Part shown: in pieces, positions 17,551-62,798 of the stretch
Numbering within the stretch: position 1 is the stretch's first letter
How the letters are laid out: the number at the start of each line of letters is the position of its first letter
Source of the DNA: Thunnus maccoyii
Lineage: Eukaryota > Chordata > Actinopteri > Scombriformes > Scombridae
Length of the DNA stretch: 64,000 bases
Assembly: GCF_910596095.1 (NCBI RefSeq)
Contig: NC_056540.1
Location: forward strand, 9,169,001 to 9,233,000
Direction of reading: 5' to 3'
The notes under the pieces: generated by a model
Database searches by the model: none
Told to the model about the DNA's origin: nothing
What the model saw: the letters and a program-made list of their open reading frames with translations, nothing else
Program-made: the position numbers and the translations under genes

Positions 17551-19356
17551 AAATTCAGAATTATCTACTGATGTGTCTGAGATCATGACACTATCTGGAG
17601 AAATTACATCGGCCTAGAGGTTATGATGCATAGCACTTAAACTTCAGTGTCTCCAGTTTGATTCTGGCTGGGAAACTATGTTGCATGTCATCTCCATACA
17701 ATTCCTACCTGCATCTCTACTTAACATTCCCAAAACAATCTTTAAAAAACAGAAATAATTAAATTTGAATAGTATTCAGCTGCTCTAATCAATATTTTAT
17801 ACTAACCATGGATCAAATTGCTATGTATAATATGAAAGGGGGTTGTTCATAGTGGAGAACCCACAGAGAATCATCACCAATTCTATGGCTCATCTCAGCT
17901 CTATGGAGTGTTGTAGTGTCTTTCAGCCCGTCTTTCAGCATTTTTTTTCCAGCTTTTAAGCAGAGAAAAGCCATTTGAAAGTAAAGTAAGTAAAAAACAC
18001 TGATAAACCCCCTGCATGCTACTTGCTCAGCACCAAACAGTACACAGACAAAGTTACAGACTAGCTGGTGAACATAGTGGAGCATTTAGTAGCTGAAAAG
18101 GCAGATATTTCCCTCAGAAGTGGAGAGTGAATTTTGATTTTCATTTGTCAGGCCCTCAGAAACAGAACTGCCAATGAAATACTAATGTTGCTCCATGTCC
18201 GCTGGATGTGTAAATAAGCAATCATTTGCTAACACACTCACCATGATAACTTTGTATGTCAACATGTGTACAGCTTATTGTGATGCCTCAGATGTCGCCA
18301 AAAAATCTGTTAATTTAGATCTAAGCTGAGAGAGAACCACTCTTGATGTCCTGTAGCCTACATACGGTATTTAAGTACAACTGAAATTATCAGGAAAGCT
18401 AATGTGGGTTGTTTAGAGTCTGTGGCTCTCGTGTTGTGTAGCAGGATGCTGTCTGGCAATTTGACTGCTCCGCCTGTGATAGAACGCCACGTTTAAGCTT
18501 TATGCAAATATGTTTTAAAATGAAGCAATTTGATTTGCTGTATGGAAACAGTGTACAAAACAAAGTACACATGGTGCTCCAACGGATGAATGCAAATATA
18601 GTGAGTGCTATCATGAAACCAAAATATAAATTTCACCCTTTTGGTTTCTGATTTTTTCTCAAAGGAGAACACAGGACGTGTTCACAGAGCAGATATGTAT
18701 TGTGTTGCAGGAAAAACAACATGGAATTTAATTTCAGTTGCACTTTAACACAGATTTACATGACTAAGTCAATTTTTTACTTACGGGGAGTATACAGTCG
18801 CTATTATGCACTTTTGGGGTGCTTTTTCAAGTTTTAGAAAAGTACTCATGTGACGTCACTTGAGTTGTTCTCTTGGCATGGGGTTGGAGACAACAAATTC
18901 TTAACAGGAAGCCTCTGTTACAGACTGGGCACATGTAGTTGCCAGTGGCGTAGGATGCAGGATTTTTGTGGCTTGACCCTAGAAGTCAGGCGGATATCTT
19001 GGCCTCTGTTGCATCAATTTTGAAGTCCCTCAACTTTATGAAAGCACGCTACTGAATTACTGCAGCGCTCTTTTAATGTTTTGCTGCATTGTGAATATTG
19101 ATTTGTGAAAATTTAACCTATAAGAAGACACTATGGACAGGTACCTTTCAAGGTATGTAAGCATAAAAGAAATTAGGATCACATAAAAAAAAAAATCGGG
19201 TCTCAAAGTATATCTGCATCTTAAAAACATAACAGACTGAATGCCGGTGAGTGCACATCTCCTGGAAAGCTCCTCTAATTGTTTCTGAACTCACATGGTG
19301 GGCATTTATGGAACTGCAGTGCATTCACCAATGACAAAAATAATCAAAGGCCTTAT
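17551..19356. other. Gene-free spacer
   Basis: No recognisable gene, RNA or structured repeat. The frame at 17813-18085 on the minus strand has no known domain. Confidence 0.5.
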
Positions 19357-19498
19357 GTCATAATTATGACTTAATATCTCATAATTATGAGAAAAGATCT
19401 CATAATTTTGAAATCTTTTCTCATAACTATGAGATAGTGAGTCATAATTTTGAGATCTTGTAATTATGAGATACAGAATTCACAATTATGAGATAAGG
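19357..19498. repeat. Palindromic AT-rich tandem repeat (ATAATTATGAGA type)
   Basis: The motif TCTCATAATTATGAGA, itself a perfect palindrome, recurs with variation at least five times in about 140 bases, in both orientations and with short spacers. It could fold into several alternative cruciforms. I recall similar 'ctcataattatgag' arrays scattered in other fish genomes. Confidence 0.7.
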
Positions 19499-20510
19499 CC
19501 TCCAATTTTTTTTCAATAGGGAATACAATGAAGTGTAGGGCATTAATACATGATGCAAAACTGAGACTGTTCCCCCTAAAGGCAAACAAATTTTAACCAC
19601 AACCTTTCCCAAGAACCAATCAATACTGAGGCCAAATCACTTAAAGATCAGTGAACCTGGAGCACAGATGAAAGAAATAAAACCATATCAGTGCTTCCCT
19701 GCAGTGCAACGGGGTGCACTGTTATCCATAACCTCTTTAGGAACAAATGAGTAGGAATTCAGCCGGGACTTTCCTTACTTCCTGTATTGCGAGCAGATGG
19801 AGTATTCTCCACCGTGAGGTACACTAACAGTGCAACCACAGAGTCCCATCTCTAAGATAGGCCTGCTTTGCCGACTGAAACAAACATCTTTTTGTGTAAA
19901 CGGAGGAGGGAGCAGATCATGTGCTTGATATTATCTGTTTATGAAGTGGTAATACAGTGGCCCTCTATGTTCTAATCAGCAGGGTCGGCCTCAGCAGTCT
20001 GGTCTCTGGTTGTTTTGTGTTTCTAATTAACCTGGAAGCTAAATGTATGTCTGGATATTGTGATCTTATAGAAGGATGTTTTTACCTTTTTCTAGGAATA
20101 CAACATGTTTTATAGCTCCAGATAACCATACAGACAGAAATGGTTTGTGATTTTTACATTTAGTGCAAAAGCATTTTGTAAAAATGCTCCACATTCCCTC
20201 TTTTAATCCTGCACTAGACACAAAAACAGCAACTCTTTGCTTTCTCGTCTTTGAGAAATAATAATAGAGAGGCAAAAGTGGAAAAATGATCAGTACTGAA
20301 TCACTGACAGGAGGAGTAACAATATCTGTGCTGGTGCGACACCCAGTGGACAGACTTTGCAGCTCTTCATGCAGTGGATTGGAGTGGATTACAATGAACC
20401 AAAACCAAGGCTGGATTAGCAACCAGGCATTGTGGCTGGACTACAGGGTACATTTTTGCTCTGGTGCCCCTAACAATTTAATCCGACCATGATTGACACA
20501 CACTTGATGA
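19499..20510. other. Spacer between repeats and cysltr1
   Basis: No supported gene. The frame at 20066-20422 on the minus strand is unrecognised and lies past the proposed end of the cysltr1 transcript. Confidence 0.5.
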
Positions 20511-21347: not shown

Positions 21348-22385
21348 TTAACTGGTATTCAACTGGTGGTTCTCCCTAAGCTCGGCACCTGTGATGGGCT
21401 TCAGCCTATCTGTGCGGTGCAGGGTGCTGGACCTCATTGTCTGGCGCAGGGAGGACAGACGGCTGCGGAAACCTTCTCCAGAGAAAAAATAAAGCAGCGG
21501 GTCAAAGCATGAATTAGCAGCAGCCAGGCAGAGTGTCACCACAACAGACTTCTGCATGGCAATCCGCTCTGCGCAGGAGGTGTCCTTCTGAGACAAGAAG
21601 CTCAGATGGATGCTTCGTTGCACGTGGTACGGCAAGAAGCTGATCAAGAAGGTCAGCAGGACGATGACAATCATGCGGATGGCTTTGGTGCCCGCGCCCC
21701 GCTGGCGTCTGGCAGCGTGGGTGCGGGACAGAAGAGTGTGAATGATGCCTGCGTAGCAGAGCAGGATGACCAGGAAGGGCACGACAAAACCCACCACCAG
21801 AGACAAATAGTTCAGCACGACCAGTTTCTCTATACCTTTACCCTGTGGAGGCTCGAAACACTTAGTTTTGTTTGTGATGGGGTCTAATTTCTGGCCAGAC
21901 ATCAGGAAGGGTGATGATGACAGGCAAATGAAAACCCAGACACCCACACACACCAGGCGTGCACGGCTCTCTGTCACCAGCTGCAGGTTCTGCACAGGGA
22001 AAACAATGGCCAAGAAACGTGTGATGGACATGACAGCCATGAAGTAAATACTGCAGTATAGGTTTACATAGAGGGCGTAGGAGCTTATACGACAGAGGAA
22101 ATCCCCCTGGTTCCACTGGCCCTTGTTGACATAGTAGAGAACTCGCAGAGGCAGCGTGCTGACACACAGCAGATCGGACACAGCCAGGTTCAACATGTAG
22201 ATATGAAAGGGAGAGCTCTGGCGGTACGTTCTGATCAGCACAACCAGGGCAAAGCCATTCCCAGCCAGGCCTAACACGGTGATGAGGGAGTAGGATGTGG
22301 AGTACACTTGATTACGGAAGTCATCGATGGATGGACATTCAATAGAGTCGTTCTCTATGCCATCAGTCAGATTGACTTGCTCCAT
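21348..22385 (-). CDS. cysltr1: Cysteinyl leukotriene receptor 1
   Basis: A 345-residue rhodopsin-family receptor in one coding exon. Its human counterpart is a plasma-membrane Gq/11-coupled receptor for LTD4 and LTC4, important in leukocytes and smooth muscle. The segment IDDFRNQVYST (20-30) before TM1, LLCVSTLPLRVLYYV, ALYVNLYCSI and CFEPPQ in the second extracellular loop are CYSLTR1 signatures. Class A landmarks are N43 (1.50), D71 (2.50), C98 (3.25), a TRF triplet (122-124) in place of DRY, and FDPLLYFF in TM7. N5 is in an N-glycosylation sequon. Human CYSLTR1 is 337 residues. The frame stays open upstream to another ATG (22475), but a good acceptor (tttgtctctgcag) lies just before the ATG at 22385, so I take that start. 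Not CYSLTR2, because the N-terminus and loop motifs fit CYSLTR1 better. Confidence 0.93.
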   Translation of the reverse strand: MEQVNLTDGIENDSIECPSIDDFRNQVYSTSYSLITVLGLAGNGFALVVLIRTYRQSSPFHIYMLNLAVSDLLCVSTLPLRVLYYVNKGQWNQGDFLCRISSYALYVNLYCSIYFMAVMSITRFLAIVFPVQNLQLVTESRARLVCVGVWVFICLSSSPFLMSGQKLDPITNKTKCFEPPQGKGIEKLVVLNYLSLVVGFVVPFLVILLCYAGIIHTLLSRTHAARRQRGAGTKAIRMIVIVLLTFLISFLPYHVQRSIHLSFLSQKDTSCAERIAMQKSVVVTLCLAAANSCFDPLLYFFSGEGFRSRLSSLRQTMRSSTLHRTDRLKPITGAELRENHQLNTS

Positions 22386-23261
22386 TTGTTTGCACACTTG
22401 TGGCTGCAGAGACAAAGTAATTACATGAAGTGTCAAAATGAAAGAGACATCTGTAGTGTTAACCCCAAAAAACATAGACGCAAGAAAAAACAGAACACTG
22501 CAGAGCGTGGTGATAGATATGGCAGATTGTTTCAGAGATAGTCTGTTTTCTGCTGCAGTTCAGACTCTGAGGGAAATTTAGAAATTAGATATGTATTTCT
22601 AGGCGTTTATCCTGTCACATGACAATGGTTCTGCTTTTTTTCTGGGTAAGAAAAAAGGTAAACGGACCATTTCTGTTTCTGCTGTGCAAGTTCATTTTTG
22701 GGAGATGCGATAATATTGTTCATGGTGGATTTACACTGAAAGAAGCTGGAATGCAGATACCTAAAGTTGATTATGGATTATAATCTGGTTAACTCTACTG
22801 TATTGAAGCCTAAAAGTGTCATCATCTATAAACGTATACATTGGCTGATAAATAAAATAAATAATTTGCACAATGATGAGTCTGACTGGCAGCCTCAGTT
22901 TTAAAATAAAAGGCACTTTATAGAAACCTTTTTTGCTGCCATTAATAATATAAAATGCATGTTAATGCTGTAAACTTTAACATTAATGAAAGTCATCACT
23001 TTGCAGATGCATTCATTCATTCATCCTGATATCTAGTTGCGTTGCGTCTCTACTGTATGTCTTTTAAATGAGAGGAATGTATTAAATCCGCTGTACAAAC
23101 TGAAATGTTGACATTGCTCAAACACTGCATGATAACATTGTGTATTTTAGTTACATGCTGTTATTTTAATTTGCTGCCAGTTACTGCCGCTTCAACAAAA
23201 GTGAAAACATTTCAACTTTCAATGATATAAATCTGGATGAGCACAGACAAGTTCTCCTTAC

Positions 23262-34247: not shown

Positions 34248-35335
34248 AAAAAACAATATGGATGCATGTAGAGCAAATAAATATCACAAATAATAAACAC
34301 CTGTAACCTAAGGAGCTTAGAAAATCTAAATTTTTGATGTCAAATTCAACCTCTACTTTTTTTATTAAATATTTTTTTATATTTGAAAAAGGAACCTGAA
34401 GGCAGCATAATGTTCATTTGTTAGGGTGATTTGGAAGTGATTTGTATGAAAAAAAAACTTAAGGTTTCCTGCATGATTATGGCCTCTTTCATTCATGCAT
34501 GACTATTCATCACTATACATTACTAGACCAGCACTGTGATGCTAGTCTCCTGCCTCATGCCTAAATTGGGCATTTTGTGTCCTTCAACTCCTCCCATAAT
34601 AATTTCCTGTCTTTATTCTGACCTTAAACATAATTTACTTTTCTCATTTTAGATTTGGACAGTGTTTGTGTGTGTGCTCTTGTCCATACAAGAGCACACA
34701 CACAAACACACACATGCTCTGTGATACACACTTACTCAAACATTTGTCCAGTTAAACAGCATCACGTGCATGTCATGTGCACCAAATTAAAACTAAAACT
34801 AAAACCACCTGTTCCCAGTCAACCATCAGAGAAGTGTAGTGGCTAATGAATTAAGCAATGCAAATCGTAACGCCAGAGTGAGTCGATTGATTAGTCATTT
34901 TAGGAGAGACTCACATTGTTTGGCAGAGATGACAAAGGCCAGTTAAACATGGCACACCCTAGTTGCTCTGGATACAGTTGTGTGTTTCAGCCTGCCTGCT
35001 CTAAAACAACAACACATCCAAAGTTCTGCCAACAGAAGGTGTCACACCTACGCTCAAACAGGGGACATACATTATTCAGTGACTGACACCAAGCCACAGA
35101 AACATTTCCCACATTCCCTCTGGGTTCATATGGAGGTACAGACACACTACAGTAAATATTTAATATCAGTCCATCTGAAAGGTTCCCCACTAGCAGTTAA
35201 GATTTTTTTGGGTTATATAAACAAGACATCTTGAGAAGTCGCTCCCTGATACCAACTCTCACACAGAGTTCCTCCCTGATCACACAGAGTTCCTCTTTTA
35301 GCTCTGTGTTGCATGGAAATACGCACACGCACGCA
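34248..35335. other. Gene-free spacer
   Basis: No gene recognised. A short inverted GT/CA hairpin lies at 34662-34715 ('tgtgtgtgtgctcttgtcc' facing 'agagcacacacacaaac'). Confidence 0.5.
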
Positions 35336-35352
35336 CACAAACACACACAAAC

Positions 35353-35436
<84 letters not shown>

Positions 35437-35441
35437 ATACA
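35336..35441. repeat. CA dinucleotide microsatellite
   Basis: A long near-pure (CA)n array, with impure flanks. The Val-Cys and His-Thr frames read through it are artefacts. Confidence 0.97.
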
Positions 35442-35683: not shown

Positions 35684-35814
35684 ATGACTTTCAATCTCAT
35701 CTTCCTGCCAATACACAGGTGAGTCCTGTGTAAATATGATTCAATTCTCTGTTTAAAGGCAGAAATAGTATACAAGTTTAGAGATAGATAGATAGATAGA
35801 TAGATAGTTAGATG

Positions 35815-35847
<33 letters not shown>

Positions 35848-35854
35848 TTAGATG

Positions 35855-35926
<72 letters not shown>

Positions 35927-36330
35927 CATTGATAGATTGATAGATAGTTCAATAAAAGTATCAGGAAAAGGCCTGCTATGTGTAAATATTGGATGAGTCA
36001 TCTTGACATGTAGGAACACTTTTCTGTGACTGTTTGCCTTCCATGAACTGAATTATACTTATTTTCTTTAAAGATTTAAGTCTATTAAGCACCTTTATCT
36101 TTTATTTTCAAATTAAATGCATGCCACACTGATGTTTTTTCAAGGGAACATGGAGTAGATAAGGCCAGAGGAGGTTCAACCTCATTCATGTTAAGTGGCA
36201 CCTGTAACACTGAAGACTTTACTGGTGGCTTGTTTGCTTGTTCGGGCCTCTGCCTACTTATATAACACTGTGAAATAGTCATAAAGAAGGAGAAAGGTGT
36301 AAAAAGGATCACATGGAAGAGATAAACCAC

Positions 36331-47954: not shown

Positions 47955-48318
47955 TGGAATAAGTTGTAAGAAGTGCTCAGATCTATTACCTAAATAAAAG
48001 TGGTATTACCATGATAGAATACATAGAATAATTGTCCCTTCCAGTGTTATAGATTGTAATATTTACTTGTTACTATTATAGATGCATTAATGTTTAAAAT
48101 TTAATATATAGCAATGTATCAGATTTAATTTGTTGATTACTTGTTTTGAATGTTTGAATCTAAAAAGTAACCAGTAGTGGAGTAAAAAGTACAGTATTTC
48201 CCTCTGAAATGTTGTGGAGTATGTAGTAACATGGAAGATACTCAGTATGAGTACTTTAGATTTTTTTTTTTTTTTTTTTTACTACAGTACTTGAGTAAAG
48301 TTACTTTTCACCACTGGC
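47955..48318 (+). repeat. Fish dispersed repeat ending 'ttacttttcaccactgg'
   Basis: Recognisable text such as 'gtacagtatttccctctgaa', 'tactcagtatgagtacttta' and 'cttgagtaaagttacttttc' belongs to an abundant teleost repeat. A T22 run (about 48259-48280) interrupts it. It ends about 110 bases before the promoter-like unit at 48429. Confidence 0.65.
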
Positions 48319-48428
48319 CCCTTCGAAAGCAAAATGTCTCAGATACTGCTTGTTATTACTTTGATAAACTAACATGATGTTCCAGTAAAGTTAATCAAAA
48401 CAGCCATGTGCAATAATAAGTGTGTGTC

Positions 48429-48468
48429 TGGTCTATATAAACTGTGAGCTGATGACCCCAGATCCTCC

Positions 48469-48469
<1 letters not shown>
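48429..48469 (+). promoter_or_regulatory. TATA-containing 41-bp unit, copy 1
   Basis: A 41-bp segment starting TGGTCTATATAAACTGTGAG and ending CCCCAGATCCTCCT. CTATATAAA is a good TATA box. An identical copy starts at 48920. The two flank the duplicated exon block and a CT/CA repeat. Promoter activity is inferred from the motif and position only. Confidence 0.5.

Positions 48470-48514
<45 letters not shown>
48470..48514. repeat. CT/CA microsatellite
   Basis: (CT)n then (CA)n directly joining the TATA-like unit to the duplicated exon-like block. Confidence 0.95.
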
Positions 48515-48520
<6 letters not shown>

Positions 48521-48725
48521 AGGTTTCTCTCAGCTGCAAAAAGTGCGCCATGCTGTTGACCTATACAGCAGAGCTTGAAGAGGAAGGCATGCTTGTGCAT
48601 CCGTCTGCTGTTTACAGAAGAGTGTGAAGCTGAGACGCTGCTGGAGCATGTGGTGGTCACTCCTTGGTCTGACCTCCCCTTTTCATCCATGCTGATCATT
48701 TAGGGAGAAGACAGCAAAGCACAAG
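48515..48725 (+). other. Candidate 5' UTR exon upstream of lpar4 (duplicated block, copy A)
   Basis: Exon-like segment ending in the donor gcacaag|gtaatga and containing a 25-codon upstream ORF (48550-48627). It is nearly identical to 58137-58347 upstream of p2ry10. A TATA-like box sits about 80 bases before it. It could splice to the lpar4 acceptor at 53242-53243, or be an inert copy of the p2ry10 leader exon. The minus-strand frame here (48433-48699) is a shadow. Confidence 0.45.
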
Positions 48726-48920
48726 GTAATGACAGCGTTTTTTGGTTTTTTTTAATAGAAATAATATCTGTGAGTCCGTCACACTGCTGTGCTTTGTCTG
48801 AACATTTGTGGTCACAGTCTTGCCTCACATTTTACTGATGACAAGGGTTTTGTTATTAAGTCCTATTTTACGTAGCTTTTGAATATCCAAATCTATCAGC
48901 GTGCAACATATCACGAGTTT
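48515..48920 (+). repeat. Segmental duplication, copy A (partner 58137-58543)
   Basis: From ATTGACAGGTTTCTCT to 'atatcacgagttt' this 406-bp stretch matches 58137-58543 with about eight substitutions and one single-base indel by eye. Both copies are preceded by a CA repeat. All but one of the differences fall after the splice donor. Confidence 0.93.
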
Positions 48921-48960
48921 GGTCTATATAAACTGTGAGCTGATGACCCCAGATCCTCCT
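48920..48960 (+). promoter_or_regulatory. lpar4: TATA-containing 41-bp unit, copy 2 (putative lpar4 promoter)
   Basis: Identical base for base to 48429-48469. It is followed by a CG/CA repeat and then by the GC-rich leader region of lpar4. This copy is the better candidate for the native promoter-proximal element of lpar4, because it is contiguous with that leader. Function is inferred. Confidence 0.45.
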
Positions 48961-48971
48961 CCACGCGCGCG

Positions 48972-49012
<41 letters not shown>
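48961..49012. repeat. CG/CA dinucleotide microsatellite
   Basis: (GC)n followed by (AC)n; the alternating purine-pyrimidine run could take a Z-DNA form. Confidence 0.95.
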
Positions 49013-49209
49013 TCACACTTTCTATCTCTCTCACTCACTCTCTCTTTACCTCCTTCTCCGCAATCTGCTATTCACTCTCCTCCTCCTCCACCACCACCTC
49101 CTCCTCCTCCTCCTGCCCACTGCCTGACCGAGGTGCTATTGTCTCGTTTCCTGTGGCCGTGCAAGCAACTCTCTACGTACACGCACGCTCACACGCAGGC
49201 GCGGTAGAT

Positions 49210-49502
49210 GTGATGCGTTCCCATTTCTAGCGGACGGAGTGAGTCGCCGGGACTAATTGAAGAACTCACACCGGGAGGAAAAGTTTTCTCTCGTTACATA
49301 GAAGAACGGCTCCTTTCTATTTGAGTCGGGTTAGTTGGAAACTCCAAGCGAGAAAAGTTTGTAGACTCAGCAGCAGCAGCAGCAGCAACACTGAGAGAAA
49401 AAATATGGAGTTTATCTTTTGACAGCTGCGCCGCCGCACTGCTGCCAGACTGACAAACATCAGTGACCGGGAGGTGAGCTGTCAACATCCATTCAGCTGC
49501 CA
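49210..49502 (+). other. lpar4: Candidate 5' UTR exon of lpar4
   Basis: GC-richer leader-like region with scattered CpGs and a CAG run (about 49367-49387), ending in the strong donor ctgcca|gtaagt at 49503. An alternative donor (gggag|gtgagc) lies at 49474. The next good acceptor on this strand next to a receptor gene is at 53242-53243, just before the lpar4 start. The transcription start is not known. Confidence 0.5.
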
Positions 49503-52500
49503 GTAAGTTTGCACTGCTTCGTATCAAGACAATAACATTTTTTTGTCTTTGGTTGAGAGAGAGAGAGAAAAAAAAAACCTTCTGAGTAGCTGTTTTCCAC
49601 AGCTAGCCCACAACCTCTGAGACCACGTAAATACAGTAATTATAGCAGCTGTAGGCATCTGTCATCTATCATAGTTGAAAATAAAGAAAAATGCCTCTCT
49701 AGGCTGTAGATGTTAGATTGGCTTTAAATATTGTGGCTGGAGGAACAAATTAACATATTTCAGTATAATCTAATGTAATTTACTACACACCAGTTATAGG
49801 GTAACATCAACAAGTAGGTGTTGATTAACTTAGAAAGAACATTTTTATTTATAGGAATTGAACATTTTTAGCTGTATTACATATTTACTGAGTATCACAA
49901 GACTTAATTAATGTGTTTGGAGCGAGAAAACAGCACAAACACCCTTCATTTAGGCCATTTCAGTTCACAGAAACATCACTACAAATTACAGTTACAGCTC
50001 CAAGAACTGCTAATTGAATTCTAGCACCTATTTTTTCCTCCATAGTCTCAAGAAAAACTGAACATTTTTGTTTATCAAACAGTGGTTCAAATTAATTAGA
50101 GCTGCACGATACTTATGAATTTTTTTCCTTGATCAATTGTGTGGTTTATAAGTAACAGTACTGTTCAACTAACAGTTGAAAACTCAAAGATATGCAATTC
50201 ATTATTATAGAAGAAAACCAGCAAATATTCACATAAAGCTGGAATCAGTGAACTGAAATGACCTCTTTTTTTCTGTCAATTAATCAACTAATCGGTTAAG
50301 AGCTGATAAAACTGAACATTATGAACCTTATAAAGTCGTATCCTGTGTTAAGGATATTAGGCCTAGTAGTTTGTGATGTAATTTAGGGCAAAGTTCAAAC
50401 AAGACCGCCCTGATTAAAAATACACTCTGTATTGTGTAGTAACGCAAGCTGCCTTGGCTGTAAAGTGTGAAGATGTCCTCTCAAACACAACACTGTGCGC
50501 CTGCTTGTCCTCCACCTTCAACCCTCCCTGCCTTCTTCCTCCTAGCGAGTGAGAGAAGGGAACAGCTGGATGTGAGCTGAGCCTGAACTCGATCCGCTCA
50601 GATCAGCGGGTCCCAGAGGCCTGTTTCTGTCACTGCCGCGGCTGACTATAAGGGGGGGAAACCCTGTAACTGTGCAGCTGTCCATGACCTGTACACACAC
50701 AGGCCTGAAATCCCTCAGCAGGACTTCTAGTAATCCACAACATTTTTAAATGTGTCTCTGCTCTAGGTCTGAAGCTGAGGCGGTTCTTGTTTCTTTCAAA
50801 CAAAAACTGTGAAGCAGCCAAATTCAATGTTCTATAGGCTCGGCTGCCCGAAGAAACAACATCAGCTGAATATGAAGCCGGCACTGTCAGGGGTCCTGGG
50901 ACCGAGCCACAGTACACAGAACCCAACAGTGTGTGTGTGAGGACTGGCACATGTAGGTGTTTGCCTGCTTGTGTATGCACGTGTGGAGAATGTGCATATG
51001 TAAGTGTGTATTTGGTGCAGACGGGTACAGTGAGGGCATTGTAAGGACCGGTGGAGGCTTTCTGGTAGGCGTGTGAAAACGCAGTAAAGATGTCACACTG
51101 CAGCTGGCACAGGACAGGCCTGATGGACTGCTTACACACACACAGCATGCTTTTGTGTGTGTGGTGAAAAGACAGAGTGAATCTTATCCAGACAAACTCA
51201 GGATTTTGACACACAATGCCAAAGACCAACCATCTCACTGCTAGTTTTGCTCTGTTGCATAACACAAGATTAGGCCAGTCTTGCTAGTTAAAGGAGTACT
51301 CTGGTGATTTAAAAGTTGGGACACCTGGGAGAAAGATTTTTGTAAAGAAAGATGAAAGAACGGTCAAAATCAATGCAGCAGAGGCCGAGATGTCCCGACA
51401 TTTCAGTCCCTGATAAGCTCCAGAAACATTGGATCCTACAATTCCCAGAATGCAACTTGACTGTCTGTTGTCAGGCCCTCCCTGCCTGCCTGTGGCTTTC
51501 AAACAACAAACTTCCAGTGTGTAAAGTTGCCTTTCCGTCACAAATTTGCAACCTCCAAGCCCAAATCAATATAACCAATTGTGACATCATGAGGGATATC
51601 TTTTTCACATTTTGGAAACACCACAGAAGAGATTATACAACTGTTTTCACATGCCGTGTAGTTCTCCTTATGACTGATACTGATGTGTTAAATCACTGGA
51701 GTTTCCCTTTTAAGACTGAGAGAGGTGAAGGTAGAGGAAAATTTAACTGAAATACAACATCTGTTTTTGGCTGAGAGCCATTGAAGTGGTCAGCAATTTA
51801 GTCCAGGACTTTATCTGTTTTTTGGCACATACCTGTTTGGTTTGGTATTTGAGCAATATTTAGTTTCTTGGGAAAACTACTGATAGTGTGTTGCACATTA
51901 CATCCGTTTTAGTTTTAATGAAAATGTTTGTTTACCTGTACAGTAGGTTCAATGAGTTCCAAACTGAAAGAGAGGTTTGTTGTAGTCACTCATTGCCTCT
52001 GTATATGTAAGATTTGAATGTTTATGACTTGGCCACACAGGGTAACAACTTTCGCCACATATTTACACCATCAGAAAAATTTGAAAGATGCTATAATCAT
52101 AAAAAATATACACATAGGGGCTTGAATGTGTTTCCTGTTGACTGTCTAATGTTTTAAAGGTGGAAATATGTAATCTCTATTTAAAGTCAGTTTAGGGTTT
52201 AAGGGTTAAAGACTCCAAACTTAACATTTGTAATCAAATATTTAATAGATTAGGAAGGTATGGATCTGATGATTTAAGTAATGAAGAAATGGTCAATTTA
52301 CAAACAACAAAAAATGCAAATTGTTGATGATCTGATTAACTGTTTGGTCATCCCCTCAGCCATCAAGGATGAAGTGCAGAATGTTAAGCCTCTACACTGT
52401 AATAGAGAGCCAATACATTTGCACAATGTCAGTTCACTGACCTTAAATATTGCTTCATGTAAATGAGTAGAAAACCATCTTTATCTTAAAATGTCAAAGC

Positions 52501-53243
52501 ATTTAATTCCTCAGGTTTGACAACAGTGTGAGCAGCTCTGCACTGCTTTTGCACCAAGCCAAAATGTTATTTACTTCTTCCAGTTGGAGCTTAGCCTCAG
52601 ATCCTTTCTGTACTTTTATGGTTGAAAGTGGATTTTACATTGAGCTCTTTAACATTGGTTCATGAATGAATGTAGCTAGAGTGTGTTTAACCTCCTAATC
52701 CACAGTAAATGCTCCTGTGTCTGGCAGCTATATAACTCTCTCACTTCTGATGACAGCCTGAGTGCTGCATGCCACACAGCCATGAGAACTGAAACCCTCT
52801 GACCAGATGAGACTTTTATTTATACTGACAGATAACACATGAACCGCATACAGACACACTTACAAGCAAGAGGATAATGTTAATAGGTTTTGGTTTTATA
52901 TTGGATGCTGATAAATAGTATGTCATTTATAAGCAAAACAATGACTTTTTGGAGGTTTCATTTGGTGTCTTCTCAGAAAATATTGGCAATGTTGGCTCTT
53001 ATATGGTCTTTTTTTTTGTAAGATTGAGTTATAAAATCCAAGTAACACAGAATACATTTCTATCTTCTGTACAGTTACATTCAAATATTAATCATACTCA
53101 GAGTTTTGTTTGAAGGTGTAATGGCTAAACGTGTATACCATTATGCTTCATGTTATATAACTGGAGTTGGAGTTGTTTGCTCCTTGGTGCATAACTTTTA
53201 TTGTGAGGAAGTGACCATGGGCTTTTTCCTTTTCTCTCCACAG
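49503..53243 (+). other. lpar4: Putative first intron of lpar4
   Basis: A 3.7-kb stretch without a recognisable gene apart from the MITE at 51288-51713. The frame at 50630-51265 on the minus strand is unrecognised. The 50450-50650 part is less AT-rich. Confidence 0.45.
51288..51713. mobile_element. MITE in the lpar4 leader intron
   Basis: TTAAAGGAGTACTCTGGTGA at the left end pairs with TCACTGGAGTTTCCCTTTTA at the right end. The 426-bp interior is non-coding, although it holds a chance frame of 132 codons (51352-51750). I recall a common fish family with these ends. Confidence 0.75.
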
Positions 53244-53305
53244 GAGGACTGACCAACCCTGCAGCCGTACATCCTGACTGTCTCTGCCTCCATTTGTGTG
53301 TCTGA

Positions 53306-53353
53306 ATGTCCACGATGGCTTGGAGGGGGCTTGACTGGTGGATCCCCTGCTGA
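53306..53353 (+). other. Upstream ORF in the lpar4 leader
   Basis: A 15-codon ATG frame ends about 100 bases before the receptor ATG, within the exon that starts at 53244 (acceptor ttttctctccacag). It may dampen receptor translation. Confidence 0.4.
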
Positions 53354-53452
53354 CAACTCTGATCCCCAGATATCCGCCCTGACTCCCCCCTTTCCTGAAG
53401 ACTTTGGTGTAACCTCGTGCTGTGGAGAACCCTTCACCTCTAAGCTCTCATC

Positions 53453-54638
53453 ATGGCTAGCTTGGTGCTTAACGAGACTGGAATGGAAGACTGTGGCATC
53501 GACGACTCCTTCAAGTACAACTTGTACTCGGTGGTCTACAGTGTGGTCTTTGTCTTAGGCCTGATCACCAACTGTGCTGCACTCTTCGTATTCTGCTTCC
53601 GGATGAAGATGCGCAACGAGACCACAATGTTTATGACTAATTTAGCATTATCCGATTTAGTATTTGTTTTTACGCTGCCATTCAAGGTCTTCTACAATGT
53701 TAACCGCCACTGGCCATTTGGAGATGGACTGTGTAAGGTATCAGGAACTGCCTTCATCACCAACATCTATGGCAGCATGCTCTTCCTCACCTGTATCAGC
53801 GTTGACCGCTTCCTGGCAATAGTCTACCCTTTCCGCTCCCGCTCTATCCGCACGCGCAGGAACGCAGCGCTGGTGTGTGCCGCCGTGTGGCTGACCATTG
53901 TGGGAGGAGGGATATCAGTGACCTTCTTCTCCACCATCAACAGCACAAATAGAGCCACAACCTGCTTTGAGGGCTTCTCCAAGAGCACCTGGAAGACGTA
54001 CCTGTCCAAAATCACCATCTTCATCGAGGTGAAGGGTCTGATAGTCACACAAACTAAAATATACACCATTTATACAATTTTATCATCTTTATTAAGCTAA
54101 TCAGAGACATAACATTAGATATTTGTCTTGCATCTTATTATCTTTCCAGATTGTGGGATTCCTCCTCCCCCTCATGGCCAACTTGGTATGTTCCTCGCTG
54201 GTTCTACGAACGCTACGTCGCCCAGTGACTGTTGGTCATGGCTGTGACAGCAAGAGACGTGTCCTAAGGATGATTCTGGTCCATCTTGGCATCTTCATCA
54301 TCTGCTTTGTCCCTTATAACTCTATCCTCTTCCTGTACGCCCTGGTGCGGACCCAGGCCCTGGCTAACTGCACTGTGGAGCGCTTTGCCCGAACTCTTTA
54401 CCCCATCACGCTCTGTCTGGCCTGCCTCAACTGCTGCCTGGACCCTGTGGTCTACTACTTCACCTCAGAGAGCTTCCAGAAAAGCTTGACCATGGGAGGC
54501 AAAGGGTCCGGCTCCCGGCCTGAGAGTATCCCTCGCAGTGACACTGAGACCCAGGACACAGCAAACACTCTCCCCAGAGACACACATGCTCTGGCCAGCA
54601 ATGGAAAAGAGACAAAGATGTCTGAGAGTGAGTTCTGA
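53453..54638 (+). CDS. lpar4: Lysophosphatidic acid receptor 4
   Basis: Two coding exons, 53453-54028 and 54150-54638, give 354 residues (human LPAR4 is 370). The product is a plasma-membrane receptor for lysophosphatidic acid, coupling in mammals to G12/13, Gq and Gs. Family signatures are IDDSFKYNL before TM1, [42 protein letters not shown] then [20 protein letters not shown] and [11 protein letters not shown]. Landmarks are N40 (1.50), D68 (2.50), C94 (3.25), DRF (118-120), PYNS in TM6 and LDPVVYYF in TM7. N7 is a glycosylation sequon. The C-tail is Ser/Thr-rich and ends ESEF, close to the human ESTF. The 121-bp intron (donor gag|gtgaag, acceptor ctttccag) splits the frame after E192 in phase 0. 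Reading through it would give a false stop. The ATG at 53453 has a good context (tcatcATGg). Its close relative LPAR6 fits less well at the N-terminus. Confidence 0.95.
54029..54149 (+). other. lpar4: Intron inside the lpar4 coding region
   Basis: GTGAAG…CTTTCCAG, 121 bases, phase 0, at the start of TM5. Removing it restores IFIE followed by IVGF, matching human IFIEVVGF. Human LPAR4 is uninterrupted here. Confidence 0.9.
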
Positions 54639-54715
54639 CCCAACAACCCAACAAGGAAGACAGAAGGTAAAGAAGGGCAGAGTGGGTTTGAAAGACAGGA
54701 GCCCTGAATTTGAAA

Positions 54716-54721
54716 AATAAA
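54716..54721 (+). terminator. lpar4: Possible poly(A) signal of lpar4
   Basis: AATAAA only 78 bases past the stop. A longer 3' UTR is likely as well. Confidence 0.3.
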
Positions 54722-57700
54722 TCAATCAGCTGCTTGGTCCTGGAAGTGACAAACGCATAACTCAGCAGATTAGTTAAATCCTGAGGTAAATCCTGAGGTA
54801 TGGCCCTGGCTTTACAGATTAATCCACCACTGGAGAGGAGAGGAATGTATCTGTTTATTATGAGCAAACACTACGGGGACCAGAGACCCAGCCACACCAG
54901 GACAATTGTGATAGTCTAGGGACACGCAGAGCCTCTAAAAGAGACTCAAACACATCATCACTCAGGTGTAACACACACAAACACTTACACATGCACTGGA
55001 TTGTGGATAAGATGGAGATTTCCGTCCACATTATTGAAATATGCTGTTAAGTACTTTTGTAACACACTGAGCCCTTAAGTTTTATTGTTATAAACTTCAA
55101 GCTTTCACAATGCAGTATATCATTTTAGACATTAATGTTATGACACTCTTTAGTGGTGAGACCCATTGTTATTATAGCACAGCAGTGCGCTGACCTGCTG
55201 AGTTAAACGTGTCTCATGTTGAAGTTTGAGGCCATTAAATGACTGTTTTGAATTGCTTTCTTGGCTGCATTTATTATTTCTGTCCCCCGCCTCGTGCCTG
55301 TTCGTTCGGTCAAACCTACTCTGAACCGGCCTTTATCAGCATGACTGTTCATTTGAACTCATAGAGGAGTTTTTCTACTCAGGCTCTTTTTTTCACCAAG
55401 CAGCCAATGTGATCTTGTTGTGGGCGCAGAAGGCAGCTCTGATCCAGTCGAGGAGTTTGGCCTGTGTGCTGTGTCACAGGCCAAATGCTTATTATGACTG
55501 GAGCAATGGTCCATTGTTTGCTCCTGAATGAGGTCTCTCTGTCTTAATCTGGCCTTAGACTGCAGATCTGCTCAAAGTCTCTTACATACTGCAATGTGCA
55601 CACACACTCCAAAGTACGGGTGAACACTGTTGACTAAATACTCACCCAAAATCATTGTGTTACACTACATGAAGAACAAAACAGTGTAGACATTATAGTC
55701 AGCAGATCTGGGCATTTTAATTTAGTATTGCTGAGTTTGGGTGCATGTTTTTTGGGGGGCGGGGGGAATATTTGATCAATATTTTATCCTTGAGTATGCC
55801 ATCAATTTTTATCACGATTGACCCCACTGAGAATAAGAACCCGGTCACACTAGCATTATACAACAGTGAAATTAATTGATTTTGTTGCATCAAAATCTTT
55901 TAATTTCATAGTGAATCTTTTGTATTGTGTTCATTTCTGGTGAACAATGACACACAAATTTGTATTTGTATTGCTGACCAATGGCTGACCGTCTTGACAT
56001 CACTAACCTTTTGAGGGAACATAAGGCTGGAGAGTCAAAAATGGAAGTATCATAACTTATCAGCTTCATCATCCACATATATTCAACCTCCCTCTGTCGA
56101 AATGCTAACTGCTCCACAAAAGAGGAATGGTTTGAAGACAGTTAGGAAACAAGAGTCACAACTATATTTCTTGAATAAACTGTGAACTTTACTGTTATCA
56201 ATTGAGTAAACAAGCTGATTAACTAAACAAGCTAGCAAGCTTGGAGAGCTTCCTTCCCTCTCTAATAACTCTTAATTGAATAAAATTATGTACAGTACTG
56301 AGAACAAAATGCCAGTGGGAAGAAAACAGCACAATAGAGAGAAAGTAGGAAGAATTTCTGAGGGCTGTTATGACTTCCTAGTGCTAGCATGTTCCCAGCT
56401 TGCTACCATGTTAGCCGTACGCTCGCCAGCTATATGCACTAATTGACCAGGCCTTTAACAGTGACAGTACAATGAGCTAATATAACATCCAGCAGCAGGG
56501 TCGGCTATATGTTTCTGTATGTACGCTACAGGCTCCAGGAGAAGGGAACTGATATCAGTCTGGGACATTATACAAGATGTTAGTACAAGTTGTTTATCCA
56601 TTCATTCATAGACCAGTGCAGAGTTACAGATTCATGGCCTTACTTGGGAATGTAACAGGTCTCTCTATACCTGCTGCAGTGGTAGGAGAGAGCGAAAAAA
56701 ATCTAGTAATCCAAGTAGGCGTCTCTGTTACTGTGAGTGATGTGACCATGTGCAACCAGCATCAAAATCAGAGAGACAACAGTAGATGTTTGTGGGGTCA
56801 AGGGTAGCAAAGAGGAGGATACTGGAGTGGATAGAAGAGGAGCAGGAAATAAGGAGAGTGGGAGTGAAGAAAAACATGCAACAACTGGCCTTTACTCCTG
56901 GACTGGTTCGTGTCAAGAATGTGGCTGTAAAATTGCAACAGAGGACAACAGCTTTCACTTCAAATGTCTCCTTTAAAGGAGCAATCTGCTCCTCTGATTG
57001 TAAATGAAAAAACTGCACTTGTTTAGTAAACTGAGTATTGGCTTGTTCTGACCTCTAGTGGCCATAAGTTGGAACAAAGAGTAATGTTTTGTGAAAACAC
57101 CACGTGTGACCTCCACTTCTTCACTGACACTGAATCACCTTGTGATACTTTCAGTTCTTTGTGTTTGTTGATCATCTTCCTGTTGCTGTATATTGAACTG
57201 CTTGTTCGTGTGAAACTCAACTGTAGCACTACAAGAGGCTTAATGGTATGAAACTAACAGGGTAGATGAAACCGCTGCCACCCTACCGAGTTGTGGTATT
57301 GCTTTTCAGAAGCACGTGAAAACATTTTTTGTTAGACCCACTCAACTGAAAATGTTACCATATGTCAATAAGGGAAATAGCCACTCCTGTGTATCAGCAA
57401 CCACAAAAAAAAAGAAAATCGAGACTTTCTAAAGCACAAATAAAAAGTCAACCATTACATGCAAATCTACCTTACACCTAATTATGCTTTGATAAACAAC
57501 AGCATTAAAAAAGGAAGTGTAACATCTGATAGGGGAAGCGGGCAAACGCTTGCATCAACTCCAAAAGTTGCAGGATGCAAAATGAGATCCTTTGACCAGA
57601 CTATATATTAATGATTGTAGGGAGATGAATAACCATTGCATATAGTATAGATGTGTACATGCAAAATGTGTGAATAGCAGTCAGTGTGCTCAGTCTCTGC

Positions 57701-58090
57701 TTTGTCCACTGACCAGATCACTTGCTTTTAGAAATCCTAAACATTTCATAGATAAGAGGAACTGATATTTTCGTGCCTGTCTGCCCATCTGTCTGTCTTT
57801 CGTTAAATTTATTTGTTTACCTGTAAAAGCTGTCAGTCTTTTTTCTAAACCGCACACTCACCCTCCCTACTGAGAGTACCAGTTATGTCTCAGTTGCAGA
57901 ATACTCAGTGACGTAAAATATGACAGAAAAACATTTGCAGACGTAAGGGCAGAGCTTCCCCTTCCCCTCATTTACCGTACCCAAAAAATTGAGCCAGCGG
58001 AGCCTTAGAACAGCCCACACCAGATGCCACCACCTCGTGCAACAACACATTCAAACAGAAACCTTATCACTGGTGGGTTGTTGCTGTCTT
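54722..58090. other. Spacer between lpar4 and p2ry10
   Basis: No recognised gene. It may hold the rest of the lpar4 3' UTR and regulatory DNA. A G-run occurs at 55754-55766. Confidence 0.45.

Positions 58091-58092
<2 letters not shown>

Positions 58093-58136
<44 letters not shown>
58093..58136. repeat. CA microsatellite
   Basis: (CA)n immediately before duplicated block B, as in block A. Confidence 0.95.
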
Positions 58137-58142
<6 letters not shown>

Positions 58143-58347
58143 AGGTTTCTCTTAGCTGCAAAAAGTGCGCCATGCTGTTGACCTATACAGCAGAGCTTGA
58201 AGAGGAAGGCATGCTTGTGCATCCGTCTGCTGTTTACAGAAGAGTGTGAAGCTGAGACGCTGCTGGAGCATGTGGTGGTCACTCCTTGGTCTGACCTCCC
58301 CTTTTCATCCATGCTGATCATTTAGGGAGAAGACAGCAAAGCACAAG
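58137..58347 (+). other. p2ry10: Candidate 5' UTR exon of p2ry10 (duplicated block, copy B)
   Basis: Ends in the donor gcacaag|gtaatga; the next fitting acceptor is ttttgttgcag at 61070, 77 bases before the p2ry10 ATG. It carries the same 25-codon upstream ORF as copy A (58172-58249). No TATA box is seen upstream of the CA repeat. Exon status is inferred from the splice site and gene order. Confidence 0.5.
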
Positions 58348-58543
58348 GTAATGACAGCGTTTTTTAGTTTTTTTTAATAGAAATAATGTCCACGAGTCCG
58401 TCACACTGCTGTGCTTTGTCTGAACATTTGTGGTCACAGTCATGCCTCACATTTTGCTGATGACAAGGGTTTTGTTATTAAGTCCTATTTTACGTAGCTT
58501 TTTGAATATCCAAATCTATCAGCGTGCAACATATCACGAGTTT
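58137..58543 (+). repeat. Segmental duplication, copy B (partner 48515-48920)
   Basis: About 98% identical to copy A over 407 bases by eye. Identity stops at 'cacgagttt', after which this copy continues 'ataggcatc' and copy A continues into the 41-bp TATA unit. Confidence 0.93.
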
Positions 58544-61070: not shown

Positions 61071-61147
61071 GTGTTGTGGGCGTCTGAGTGAAAAGATGAA
61101 GAATAATTGAATTGAATTATACCAACAGTGTCTGTGCTAGAGAGGGA
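61071..61147 (+). other. p2ry10: 5' UTR part of the first p2ry10 coding exon
   Basis: Follows the acceptor ttttgttgcag. It contains a four-codon upstream ORF (61096-61110) shortly before the receptor ATG. Confidence 0.6.
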
Positions 61148-61341
61148 ATGACTTTGAATACGTCTGGATCGGGGGAGGAGTCCTCCTCCTCACAATGTGG
61201 CTACAATATGACCAGCTGGGAGCAGCGCATGGACTCGATGTACACCTACTTCTACCTGCTGCTTTTCATTCCTGGGCTGCTGCTCAACACCACTGCCCTC
61301 TGGGTCCTCTGCAGACACATTAGGTGTGCACATACAAACAT

Positions 61342-61378
<37 letters not shown>

Positions 61379-62798
61379 AAGCCTCAAATACATTTTGGAC
61401 ATGTAGCTAACTTTTCTGTATGTTGCTCCACAGTAAGAAGACCAAGGCAGTGATCTTCATGATAAACCTGGCATTAGCCGACCTGGCCCACATCCTCTCT
61501 CTGCCCCTCAGGATCTATTATTACTTTGCTCATACCTGGCCCTTTGGACACAACCTCTGCTTGTTCTGCTTTTACCTCAAATACCTCAACATGTACGCCG
61601 CTATAGTGTTCCTGGTAAGCAGACAGCACAGTGAAAATAATCTGGAATATCCTGAAGGTTAGGGAGAACAAGGAAGGTCAAATGATAGTTTAGGGATTTC
61701 TCTTCCATTTAAAAGCAAGCAAATGTCCTTGTTGATAAAAAAGTTCCTTTGGGAATAACAGGAAGTCATTTGAACGTATGCCAGTGACTCCCTTCGCCTC
61801 GCTTCTCAGAACAAATGTACTTCCTCTGACTGTGAAACTGGTAGATAATTCTACATCACTGTTTCTGTTTCCTCTGTTTTCAGGTGTGTATTAGTGTGCA
61901 GAGGTGTGTCTTCCTGCTCAACCCATTCTCTGCTCGCCAGTGGAGGCGGCGTTACGACGTGCTGATCAGTTTTATAGTGTGGGTGGTAGTCAGTCTGGCC
62001 TGCTCACCTTTCATTTTTATGCGGAGCAGCAGCAGCAGCAGCAGTGCCACCACTGCTAGCGTGGGTACACAGATCTTGAACATGTCCTATCCTTTGGATG
62101 CCGCTTCTACCCAACATCCCACCACTTACATCAAGCTCTATGTGTCGTCTTTGAGTACAAGCCCTCAGGTCTCCAGTCTCAGCTCTGCTAAAGCCGGCTG
62201 TTTTAAAGACTTGCCCATGCGTCATCTGTCCCCCTTTCTGGCAGTCACCATGATGGCTCTCGCTGAGTTGTTTGGCTTCCTGATTCCTTTGACTTGCATT
62301 TGTTACAGCTCCATCCGCATCGCCCGTTCCCTCCACCAGAGACAGACAGTGGAGGATCAGAAGAACTCCACCACGCTCTCACGCTCTCGCACTCAGTCAG
62401 TCACGTCGGCAGATAATCACGAGAAGCACACAAACAGTGACAAGCGGCGTGCCCTGCAGATGGTGCTGAGCTGCACTGCCCTCTTCTTGTTCTGCTTCGC
62501 CCCCTACCACCTCAACTTCCTGCTCTACCTGATGGTGTCGCAGGACATAATATCCGACTGCACCATGAGTCTGGCAGTGCGTCAGTTCCACCCAGTGTCT
62601 CTGTGCATGGCAAGCCTGAGCTGCTGCCTCAACCCTCTGCTCTATTACTTTCTAACAGCTGAGTTCAGATCGCACCTCACCAGACGCAGCTCCTCCTTCA
62701 CCTCCACACTCCTCTCCTCTCCGGTCAGCTCCCCGTCCCAGCGTTCTGCACCGCACAGAATGATGAGCTTGAGGAGTAACTACTCAGACAGAGAATAG
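61148..62798 (+). CDS. p2ry10: P2RY10-type lysophospholipid receptor
   Basis: Three coding exons, 61148-61323, 61434-61614 and 61884-62798, give 423 residues (human P2RY10 is 339). Mammalian P2RY10 is a leukocyte receptor reported to respond to lysophosphatidylserine. Diagnostic text: LLFIPGLLLN and TALWVLC in TM1, KAVIFMINLALADLAHILSL then PLRIYYY in TM2, LCLFCFYLKYLNMYA in TM3, CISVQRCVFLLNPF replacing DRY, QWRRRYDV, FAPYHLNF in TM6 and LNPLLYYF in TM7. N47 is 1.50 and D75 is 2.50. N4 and N20 are sequons. The extra length is mainly an enlarged, Ser/Thr-rich second extracellular loop that includes an AGC-encoded poly-Ser run. Splice sites are consensus, and joining them restores CRHISKKTKA and FLVCISVQRC. 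GPR174 is the nearest alternative, but TM1, TM2 and the QRC motif favour P2RY10. A Ser-rich C-tail follows. Confidence 0.92.
61324..61433 (+). other. p2ry10: p2ry10 coding intron 1
   Basis: 110 bases, AG|GTGTGC…CTCCACAG, splitting a Ser codon at the TM1-TM2 loop. A (CA)n run (about 61344-61374) fills a third of it. Confidence 0.88.
61615..61883 (+). other. p2ry10: p2ry10 coding intron 2
   Basis: 269 bases, CTG|GTAAGC…TGTTTTCAG, phase 0, placed in TM3 just before the VCISVQR segment. Confidence 0.9.
62025..62045 (+). repeat. p2ry10: AGC trinucleotide run in p2ry10 coding sequence
   Basis: Six AGC codons and one AGT encode seven serines at the start of the second extracellular loop. Confidence 0.95.

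Follow-up and report, generated by a model that had tools for sequence, protein, structure and literature searches.

A probable recent insertion of p2ry10 upstream DNA at the predicted lpar4 core promoter of Thunnus maccoyii

We propose, with a probability of about 0.8, that approximately 404 bp of DNA from upstream of p2ry10 was recently inserted at the lpar4 core promoter in a DNA-templated event. The window, that is the whole stretch of 64,000 nucleotides that was analysed, holds the two genes as related, adjacent class A receptors on the + strand. The putative exon 2 and coding sequence of lpar4 occupy 53244..54638 (start codon 53453, intron 54029-54149, 354 aa open), and p2ry10, an immune receptor gene, spans 61071..62798: its acceptor lies at 61071 and its start codon at 61148, two introns (61324-61433 and 61615-61883) interrupt the coding sequence, and the frame is open over 423 aa. 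The acceptors at 53244 and 61071, which had been named in the original prediction, both proved to be good CAG sites.

Two copies of a block upstream of lpar4 and p2ry10

Near-identical blocks with about eight substitutions and one indel had been predicted upstream of the two genes on the same strand, and both blastn and direct alignment confirmed them at these positions. The copy upstream of lpar4 (48516..48919, + strand) and the copy upstream of p2ry10 (58138..58542, + strand) differ by 8 substitutions (8/404 aligned positions) and 1 indel (97.8% identity); blastn of 48490-48920 against 58112-58543, which includes the CA tract common to both, gives 432 columns at 97.9% with 8 mismatches and 1 gap. 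Chance can be excluded as the source of this match, since self-comparison of the window yields a single further alignment of at least 200 bp, a palindrome at 19313-19534.

The block contains an exon-like part, inferred to be an exon (48516..48725 on the lpar4 side and 58138-58347 on the p2ry10 side, both + strand), which ends in both copies at the same putative donor, AAG/GTAATG (48726 and 58348). An identical 25-codon upstream ORF is also present in both (48550..48627 and 58172..58249, + strand), as had been claimed. Scored with a frequency table, the donor at 48726 is of moderate strength, its 2.52 bits placing it among the top 2.5% of GTs in the window. We set aside the block as a coding exon, its longest stop-free stretches being 61 codons on the - strand and 47 on the + strand. 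In lpar4-side coordinates, a single difference, at 48531, precedes the putative donor, for which the last exon base is 48725, and the others fall past it, at 48744, 48766, 48769, 48770, 48771, 48820 and 48834, with the indel at 48881; the statement that all but one of the differences follow the donor is therefore correct. For the substitutions this skew has p = 0.031, and adding the indel gives 0.016; counting the four changes at 48766-48771 as one event raises these values to 0.20 and 0.11. The skew is not robust, and we do not draw on it as evidence for exon constraint.

A search of the 782-Mb assembly found, within the limits of the tool, two copies of the block, both at the lpar4/p2ry10 locus, and not the many copies of a dispersed repeat. 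The block has no poly(A) (no run of A exceeds 5 bases and none of T exceeds 8), its first 20 bases bear no resemblance to the reverse complement of its last 20, and the window has no Rfam matches; on these results and the copy number we reject a dispersed repeat or transposon. The 557 bp to the right of the p2ry10-side copy are single-copy. We also compared the block, its exon part and the likely native lpar4 exon 1 with 44 loci (40 from receptor matches and 4 from block or TATA sequence, with a flank of ~1.5 kb each), a weak test in which matches outside their own locus reached just 15 bp. Scans of viral_contigs and genome_contigs with 24-mers returned 0 matches and are uninformative, as both collections lack fish genomes.

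Junctions, direction of copying and alternative origins

The lpar4-side copy is flanked by an exact 42-bp direct duplication (48429..48470 and 48920..48961, + strand), each arm of which contains TATATAAA (48434-48441 and 48925-48932) and an initiator-like CCAGATC (48458-48464 and 48949-48955). We read this TATA-and-initiator-like sequence as the predicted lpar4 core promoter. Allowing up to 3 mismatches, a 35-mer taken from it occurs at just these 2 sites in the assembly, and no bracket of this type was found around the p2ry10-side copy. The end of the block abuts the start of the second 42-bp arm, and one T is common to both (a 1-nt overlap, weak alone). The left junction of the insert is a CT/CA tract (48471..48515), a (CA)22 tract marks the left edge of the p2ry10-side copy (58094..58137), and a CG/CA tract, the probable break or switch site, follows the right arm at the target (48962..49011), all on the + strand, so that CA tracts provide junction homology at the left edges of the two copies as well as at the target. 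The original prediction was silent on the bracket, though its start coordinate, 48429, is the bracket's first base; it was also silent on which gene was the source (p2ry10) and which the recipient (lpar4), on the structure of the insertion and on the doubling of the core promoter.

Because the bracket flanks the lpar4-side copy and not the p2ry10-side copy, we strongly infer, from the junction structure alone, that p2ry10 DNA was put into the lpar4 core promoter. The block and the bracket appear to be of similar age, with 8/404 substitutions in the former and 0/42 differences in the latter (P(0 of 42) = 0.43 at 2% divergence and 0.012 at 10%), and these counts, with the two assembly copies, support the recent duplication originally suggested. 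CA-tract priming followed by a repair route, either template switching or break repair, probably gave rise to the insert. A break or stalled fork within the CG/CA tract at the lpar4 core promoter would have left a CA-ended strand, which would have annealed to the (CA)n tract that lies in front of p2ry10 at a distance of ~9.6 kb. Approximately 404 bp would then have been copied, including the exon-like segment, the donor and sequence past the donor, before the strand re-entered lpar4 upstream of its departure point, which would double the 42 bp of TATA-and-initiator-like sequence. The tract that follows the 42 bp differs, however, being CT on the left and CG on the right, and this weighs against such an insertion because simple duplication should leave one kind of tract on both sides; to account for the mismatch, slippage, mutation of the tract or another switch would be needed. 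The segment from which the insert was copied is still present elsewhere in the genome, as defines a DNA-templated insertion, and a spliced transcript is unlikely to have been the template since the block continues past the putative donor and lacks poly(A).

An old duplication of the upstream exon along with the receptor genes, as tandem paralogues, with gene conversion keeping the copies alike, seems improbable to us. The two genes are related neighbouring class A receptors and conversion would also be expected to give near-identity, but the two upstream regions are otherwise without similarity, and the block stops at a bracket that is itself identical, which has a probability of 0.012 at 10% divergence. 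Nor is there a copy in the longer upstream stretches that we compared, one towards gpr174 (L045) and two from LPAR6-like genes (L046 and L047), where the closest resemblance is a 33-bp stretch that spans the donor with 85% identity (48702-48734 against L047:552-584, E = 6e-5). This match was considered as a paralogue first exon and taken as chance, as equal or higher scores came from 30 of 400 pieces drawn at random from the window. An artefact of assembly, whether a misplaced haplotype or a chimeric join, is more improbable again: CA, CT and CG tracts are prone to error, but the 8 sites and one indel that differ speak against the double pasting of one sequence, and the exact 42-bp bracket would need creating too.

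There is a very slight chance that the block is a retrotransposed or transposon-borne copy, for example a transcript copied by a LINE, or else a rare mobile element. The bracket, at 42 bp, exceeds the usual length of a target-site duplication, there are two copies only, poly(A) and terminal inverted repeat are both absent, the content is unspliced and the window is without an Rfam match. In its favor, a target duplication is present, as in the class 1 templated insertions and transposons outlined in PMC5110952. The reverse direction, in which p2ry10 received lpar4 upstream DNA, we hold to be the remotest of these alternatives. That each copy has a CA tract on its left side would suit it, but the end of the copy would have to coincide by accident with the first base of the second TATA copy, and no target duplication is seen at p2ry10.

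Predicted consequences for lpar4 transcription

The native lpar4 exon 1 is likely to be a CpG-rich segment with its own core promoter (48951..49473, + strand, putative start). Its donor, GAG/GTGAGC at 49474, scores 7.28 bits, the best in 48300-49800, and CpG o/e is 0.73-0.90 in windows covering 48600-49599. Insertion from p2ry10 would leave a pair of identical core promoters at a spacing of 491 bp, with the left predicted to lead into the p2ry10-derived exon-like segment (donor 48726) and the right into the likely native exon 1. We speculate, tentatively and at less than even odds, that transcription of lpar4 from the left core promoter begins with the p2ry10-derived exon (48725 spliced to 53244), beside native exon 1 (49473 spliced to 53244) from the right promoter. 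With acceptors 53244 and 61071, the upstream-ATG counts are 6 and 5, respectively. The moderate donor and single motif argue against a functional effect, and the first exon common to lpar4 and p2ry10 is putative, given that moderate donor and a better lpar4 candidate (49474) just downstream.

The motif is a PU.1/ETS-type match, AGAGGAAG, present in the lpar4-side copy (48579..48586, + strand) and in the p2ry10-side copy (58201..58208, + strand) and treated as a lead; the window holds this 8-mer 8 times, where 2.17 occurrences would be expected. Mammalian P2RY10 is reported to be under PU.1/Spi-B control (Rao et al. 1999, as cited in PMC4081075 and PMC8611058), and the fish p2ry10 upstream block has one AGAGGAAG motif, a candidate site. 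Lymphoid control common to lpar4 and p2ry10, suggested by this one PU.1-type site and the mammalian literature, is only a lead. A joint reading, which we judge unlikely, is that one copying event rewired two adjacent lysophospholipid receptor genes, such that lpar4 transcripts from one of the twin core promoters begin with the p2ry10 first exon and its upstream ORFs, PU.1-type DNA lies directly upstream of the native exon 1 core promoter, and lpar4 gained leukocyte expression in this lineage.

New promoters are mostly attributed to transposons or large duplications. Here, a young two-copy event with no transposon sign seemingly moved a promoter-proximal segment that resembles an exon from one receptor gene to the next, and the recipient core promoter was doubled, not destroyed. 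The step from mutation to regulation is directly testable at this locus because source, target and junctions lie in one locus with few differing sites. We regard the case as a well-resolved mutation and the regulatory innovation as a candidate.

Comparison with known systems

Alternative promoters and first exons are found in vertebrate genes in which two core promoters lead into different first exons and one common coding exon. The predicted layout of lpar4, with two core promoters, two first exons and one coding exon, is like these, and unlike them in that duplication would have made its two core promoters identical and one candidate first exon derives from a neighbouring gene. Template-switch mechanisms include MMBIR and FoSTeS. 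In replication template switching, as outlined in PMC7954356, the polymerase moves to a nearby template and returns, and the copied segment remains. The lpar4 insert resembles such events in the copied segment left behind and in a return upstream of departure that would duplicate the flank, with putative CA-tract priming at lpar4. Unlike the cases described there, it consists of promoter-proximal DNA with an exon-like segment, placed inside the core promoter of another gene.

Among the listed matches from the literature on promoter or first-exon copying and on these genes in fish, we recognised none to the present case. Human templated sequence insertion polymorphisms, as summarised in PMC5110952, fall into class 1, with poly(A) and a LINE-type target site, and class 2, without target duplications. 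The lpar4 insert is like these in being a short piece from elsewhere in the genome with microhomology-scale junctions. It differs from class 1 as outlined there in lacking poly(A), though it has a target-site duplication (42 bp) of at least 5 bp, from class 2 in carrying that 42-bp duplication, and from the human insertions so summarised in having as its source a neighbour 9.6 kb off with a common CA tract. The event would be a templated insertion with a 42-bp target duplication but without poly(A), with a neighbouring source and a core promoter as its target.

The paired blocks upstream of lpar4 and p2ry10

Comparison of the window with itself aligned 48490-48920 to 58112-58543 at 97.9% identity (432 columns, eight mismatches and one gap), bearing out the original prediction of two near-identical blocks on the same strand, here delimited as ∼404 bp at 48516-48919 (lpar4 side) and 58138-58542 (p2ry10 side). 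Both hold the same putative splice donor, AAG/GTAATG (last exon base 48725 and 58347, respectively), and an identical 25-codon ORF, as had been claimed. Base-by-base comparison likewise upheld the claim that all differences but one lie past this donor, with one substitution before it (48531) and seven substitutions (48744, 48766, 48769, 48770, 48771, 48820, and 48834) and one indel (48881) after it. The skew gives p = 0.031 for substitutions and 0.016 with the indel, vs p = 0.20 and 0.11 when the four-change cluster is counted as a single event, and the excess is not robust.

The possibility that the block is a dispersed repeat with many copies elsewhere was checked against the 782-Mb assembly (54 contigs) that contains the window. 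A DNA search with the block found two places, both inside the window; since that search passes over very common words, a pattern search is the safer copy count, and a block 23-mer with up to three mismatches returned the same two places (reversed control, 0). These counts go against the many-copy possibility raised with the original prediction. An LPAR6-like gene on contig C13 has, ∼8.6 kb upstream (L047:552-584), a 33-bp stretch that matches the part of the block around its splice donor at 85%; 30 of 400 pieces taken at random from the window reached an equal or higher score, so this match is probably due to chance.

The only other self-alignment of at least 200 bp in the window is an imperfect palindrome at 19313-19534 (∼230 bp, 73% self-complementary), a possible hairpin or small mobile element. 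Tandem arrays occur at 35321-35441, where a (CA)n tract spans 35358-35431, and at 35782-35947, and two short diverged repeat pairs (76-85%; 12901-13006/17416-17522 and 3500-3660/13269-13428) are probably old mobile elements.

Identity of the receptor genes

The gene order is cysltr1, lpar4, p2ry10, gpr174, comprising a CysLT1-like receptor on the minus strand (21348-22475; best match CYSLTR1, 3e-112), the lpar4 and p2ry10 genes (best match of the latter P2Y10, 4e-46) and a GPR174-like gene in L026 (G000:C8:9241919-9242536), ∼9 kb beyond the window. The lpar4 gene best matches LPAR6 structures and taken alone would be called LPAR6. Despite this match we read it as lpar4, because zebrafish Lpar6a is closer to the C13 paralogue (283.9 bits over 184 aa vs 238.9 for the window gene) and the neighbors CYSLTR1, P2RY10, and GPR174 fit LPAR4 in the human gene order. 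A further paralogue on contig C6 stands at 59%. A single short intron interrupts the coding sequence of lpar4 (53453-54638), and two introns interrupt that of p2ry10 (61148-62798); with introns so placed both reading frames stay open, over 354 and 423 aa, respectively. The mammalian counterparts carry their coding sequence in a single exon.

A candidate insertion at the lpar4 core promoter

An exact 42-bp direct repeat, overlooked in the original prediction, flanks the lpar4-side block (48429-48470 and 48920-48961), and a pattern search of the assembly with a 35-mer from it (up to three mismatches) hit no other site. The right end of the block coincides with the start of the second repeat copy, and the two share one T. 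The p2ry10-side block lacks a comparable repeat, and its right flank is single-copy over 557 bp. When the lpar4 flanks are joined without the block, the predicted empty site is simple: a single TATA sequence and then the CG/CA tract. We read the lpar4-side structure as an insertion that duplicated its target, p2ry10 being the probable source and lpar4 the recipient. It is most likely a young, DNA-templated event that placed sequence from upstream of p2ry10 within the core promoter of lpar4, which was itself duplicated.

The 42-bp repeat contains TATATAAA and an initiator-like CCAGATC, whose A lies 26 bp past the first T. This pairing is suggestive and not proof, since TATAWAAR with an initiator-like motif 24-34 bp on occurs at two other plus-strand and two minus-strand sites in the window. 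The right copy is followed by a stretch rich in CpG (observed/expected ratios of 0.73-0.90 across the 400-bp windows that span 48600-49599). Among splice donors in 48300-49800, GAG/GTGAGC at 49474 ranks highest, at 7.28 bits vs 2.52 for the block's donor when scored with a frequency table. We read the right copy, the CpG-rich stretch, and donor 49474 as the native lpar4 core promoter and exon 1; on that reading, the insertion would have doubled the core promoter, one copy then serving the captured block and the other the native exon.

Both block copies have a CA tract at the left edge, 48490-48515 at lpar4 and 58094-58137 at p2ry10, and a CG/CA tract occupies 48962-49011 in the target. In the simplest account, a break or stall within the target tract would have left a CA-ended strand that paired with the CA tract on the p2ry10 side, copied ∼404 bp of DNA there, and rejoined lpar4 upstream of its departure point. 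Past the identical 42 bp comes a CT tract on the left (48471-48489, 19 nt) and a CG tract of nearly equal length on the right (48962-48979, 18 nt), a pattern that plain duplication does not predict and that would call for slippage or another switch. The block contains sequence from both sides of the putative splice donor and has no A run longer than 5, which makes a spliced or LINE-copied transcript an unlikely source.

The two block copies differ at 8 of 404 positions and the two copies of the flanking repeat at 0 of 42; the probability of the latter is 0.43 if divergence is 2% and 0.012 if it is 10%. The insertion thus appears young, in line with the predicted recency of the duplication; with 3.5e-9 to 1e-8 taken as the per-generation mutation rate in fish, its age is roughly 1-3 million generations.

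Possible regulatory effect

The original prediction was that the two receptors may have gained the same first exon and, with it, shared control; control common to lpar4 and p2ry10 through the block is possible and unproven. A regulatory consequence of the putative insertion is a clear, testable prediction. A transcript that starts at the left core promoter and runs through the block to the acceptor at 53244 would carry six upstream ATGs vs five via native exon 1 and so might be translated slightly more poorly. A single AGAGGAAG site, a PU.1/ETS-type motif, is present in both copies of the block; this 8-mer, picked after the sequence had been seen, occurs eight times in the window vs 2.17 expected. 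In mammals, P2RY10 is described as a PU.1/Spi-B target (PMC4081075, PMC8611058).
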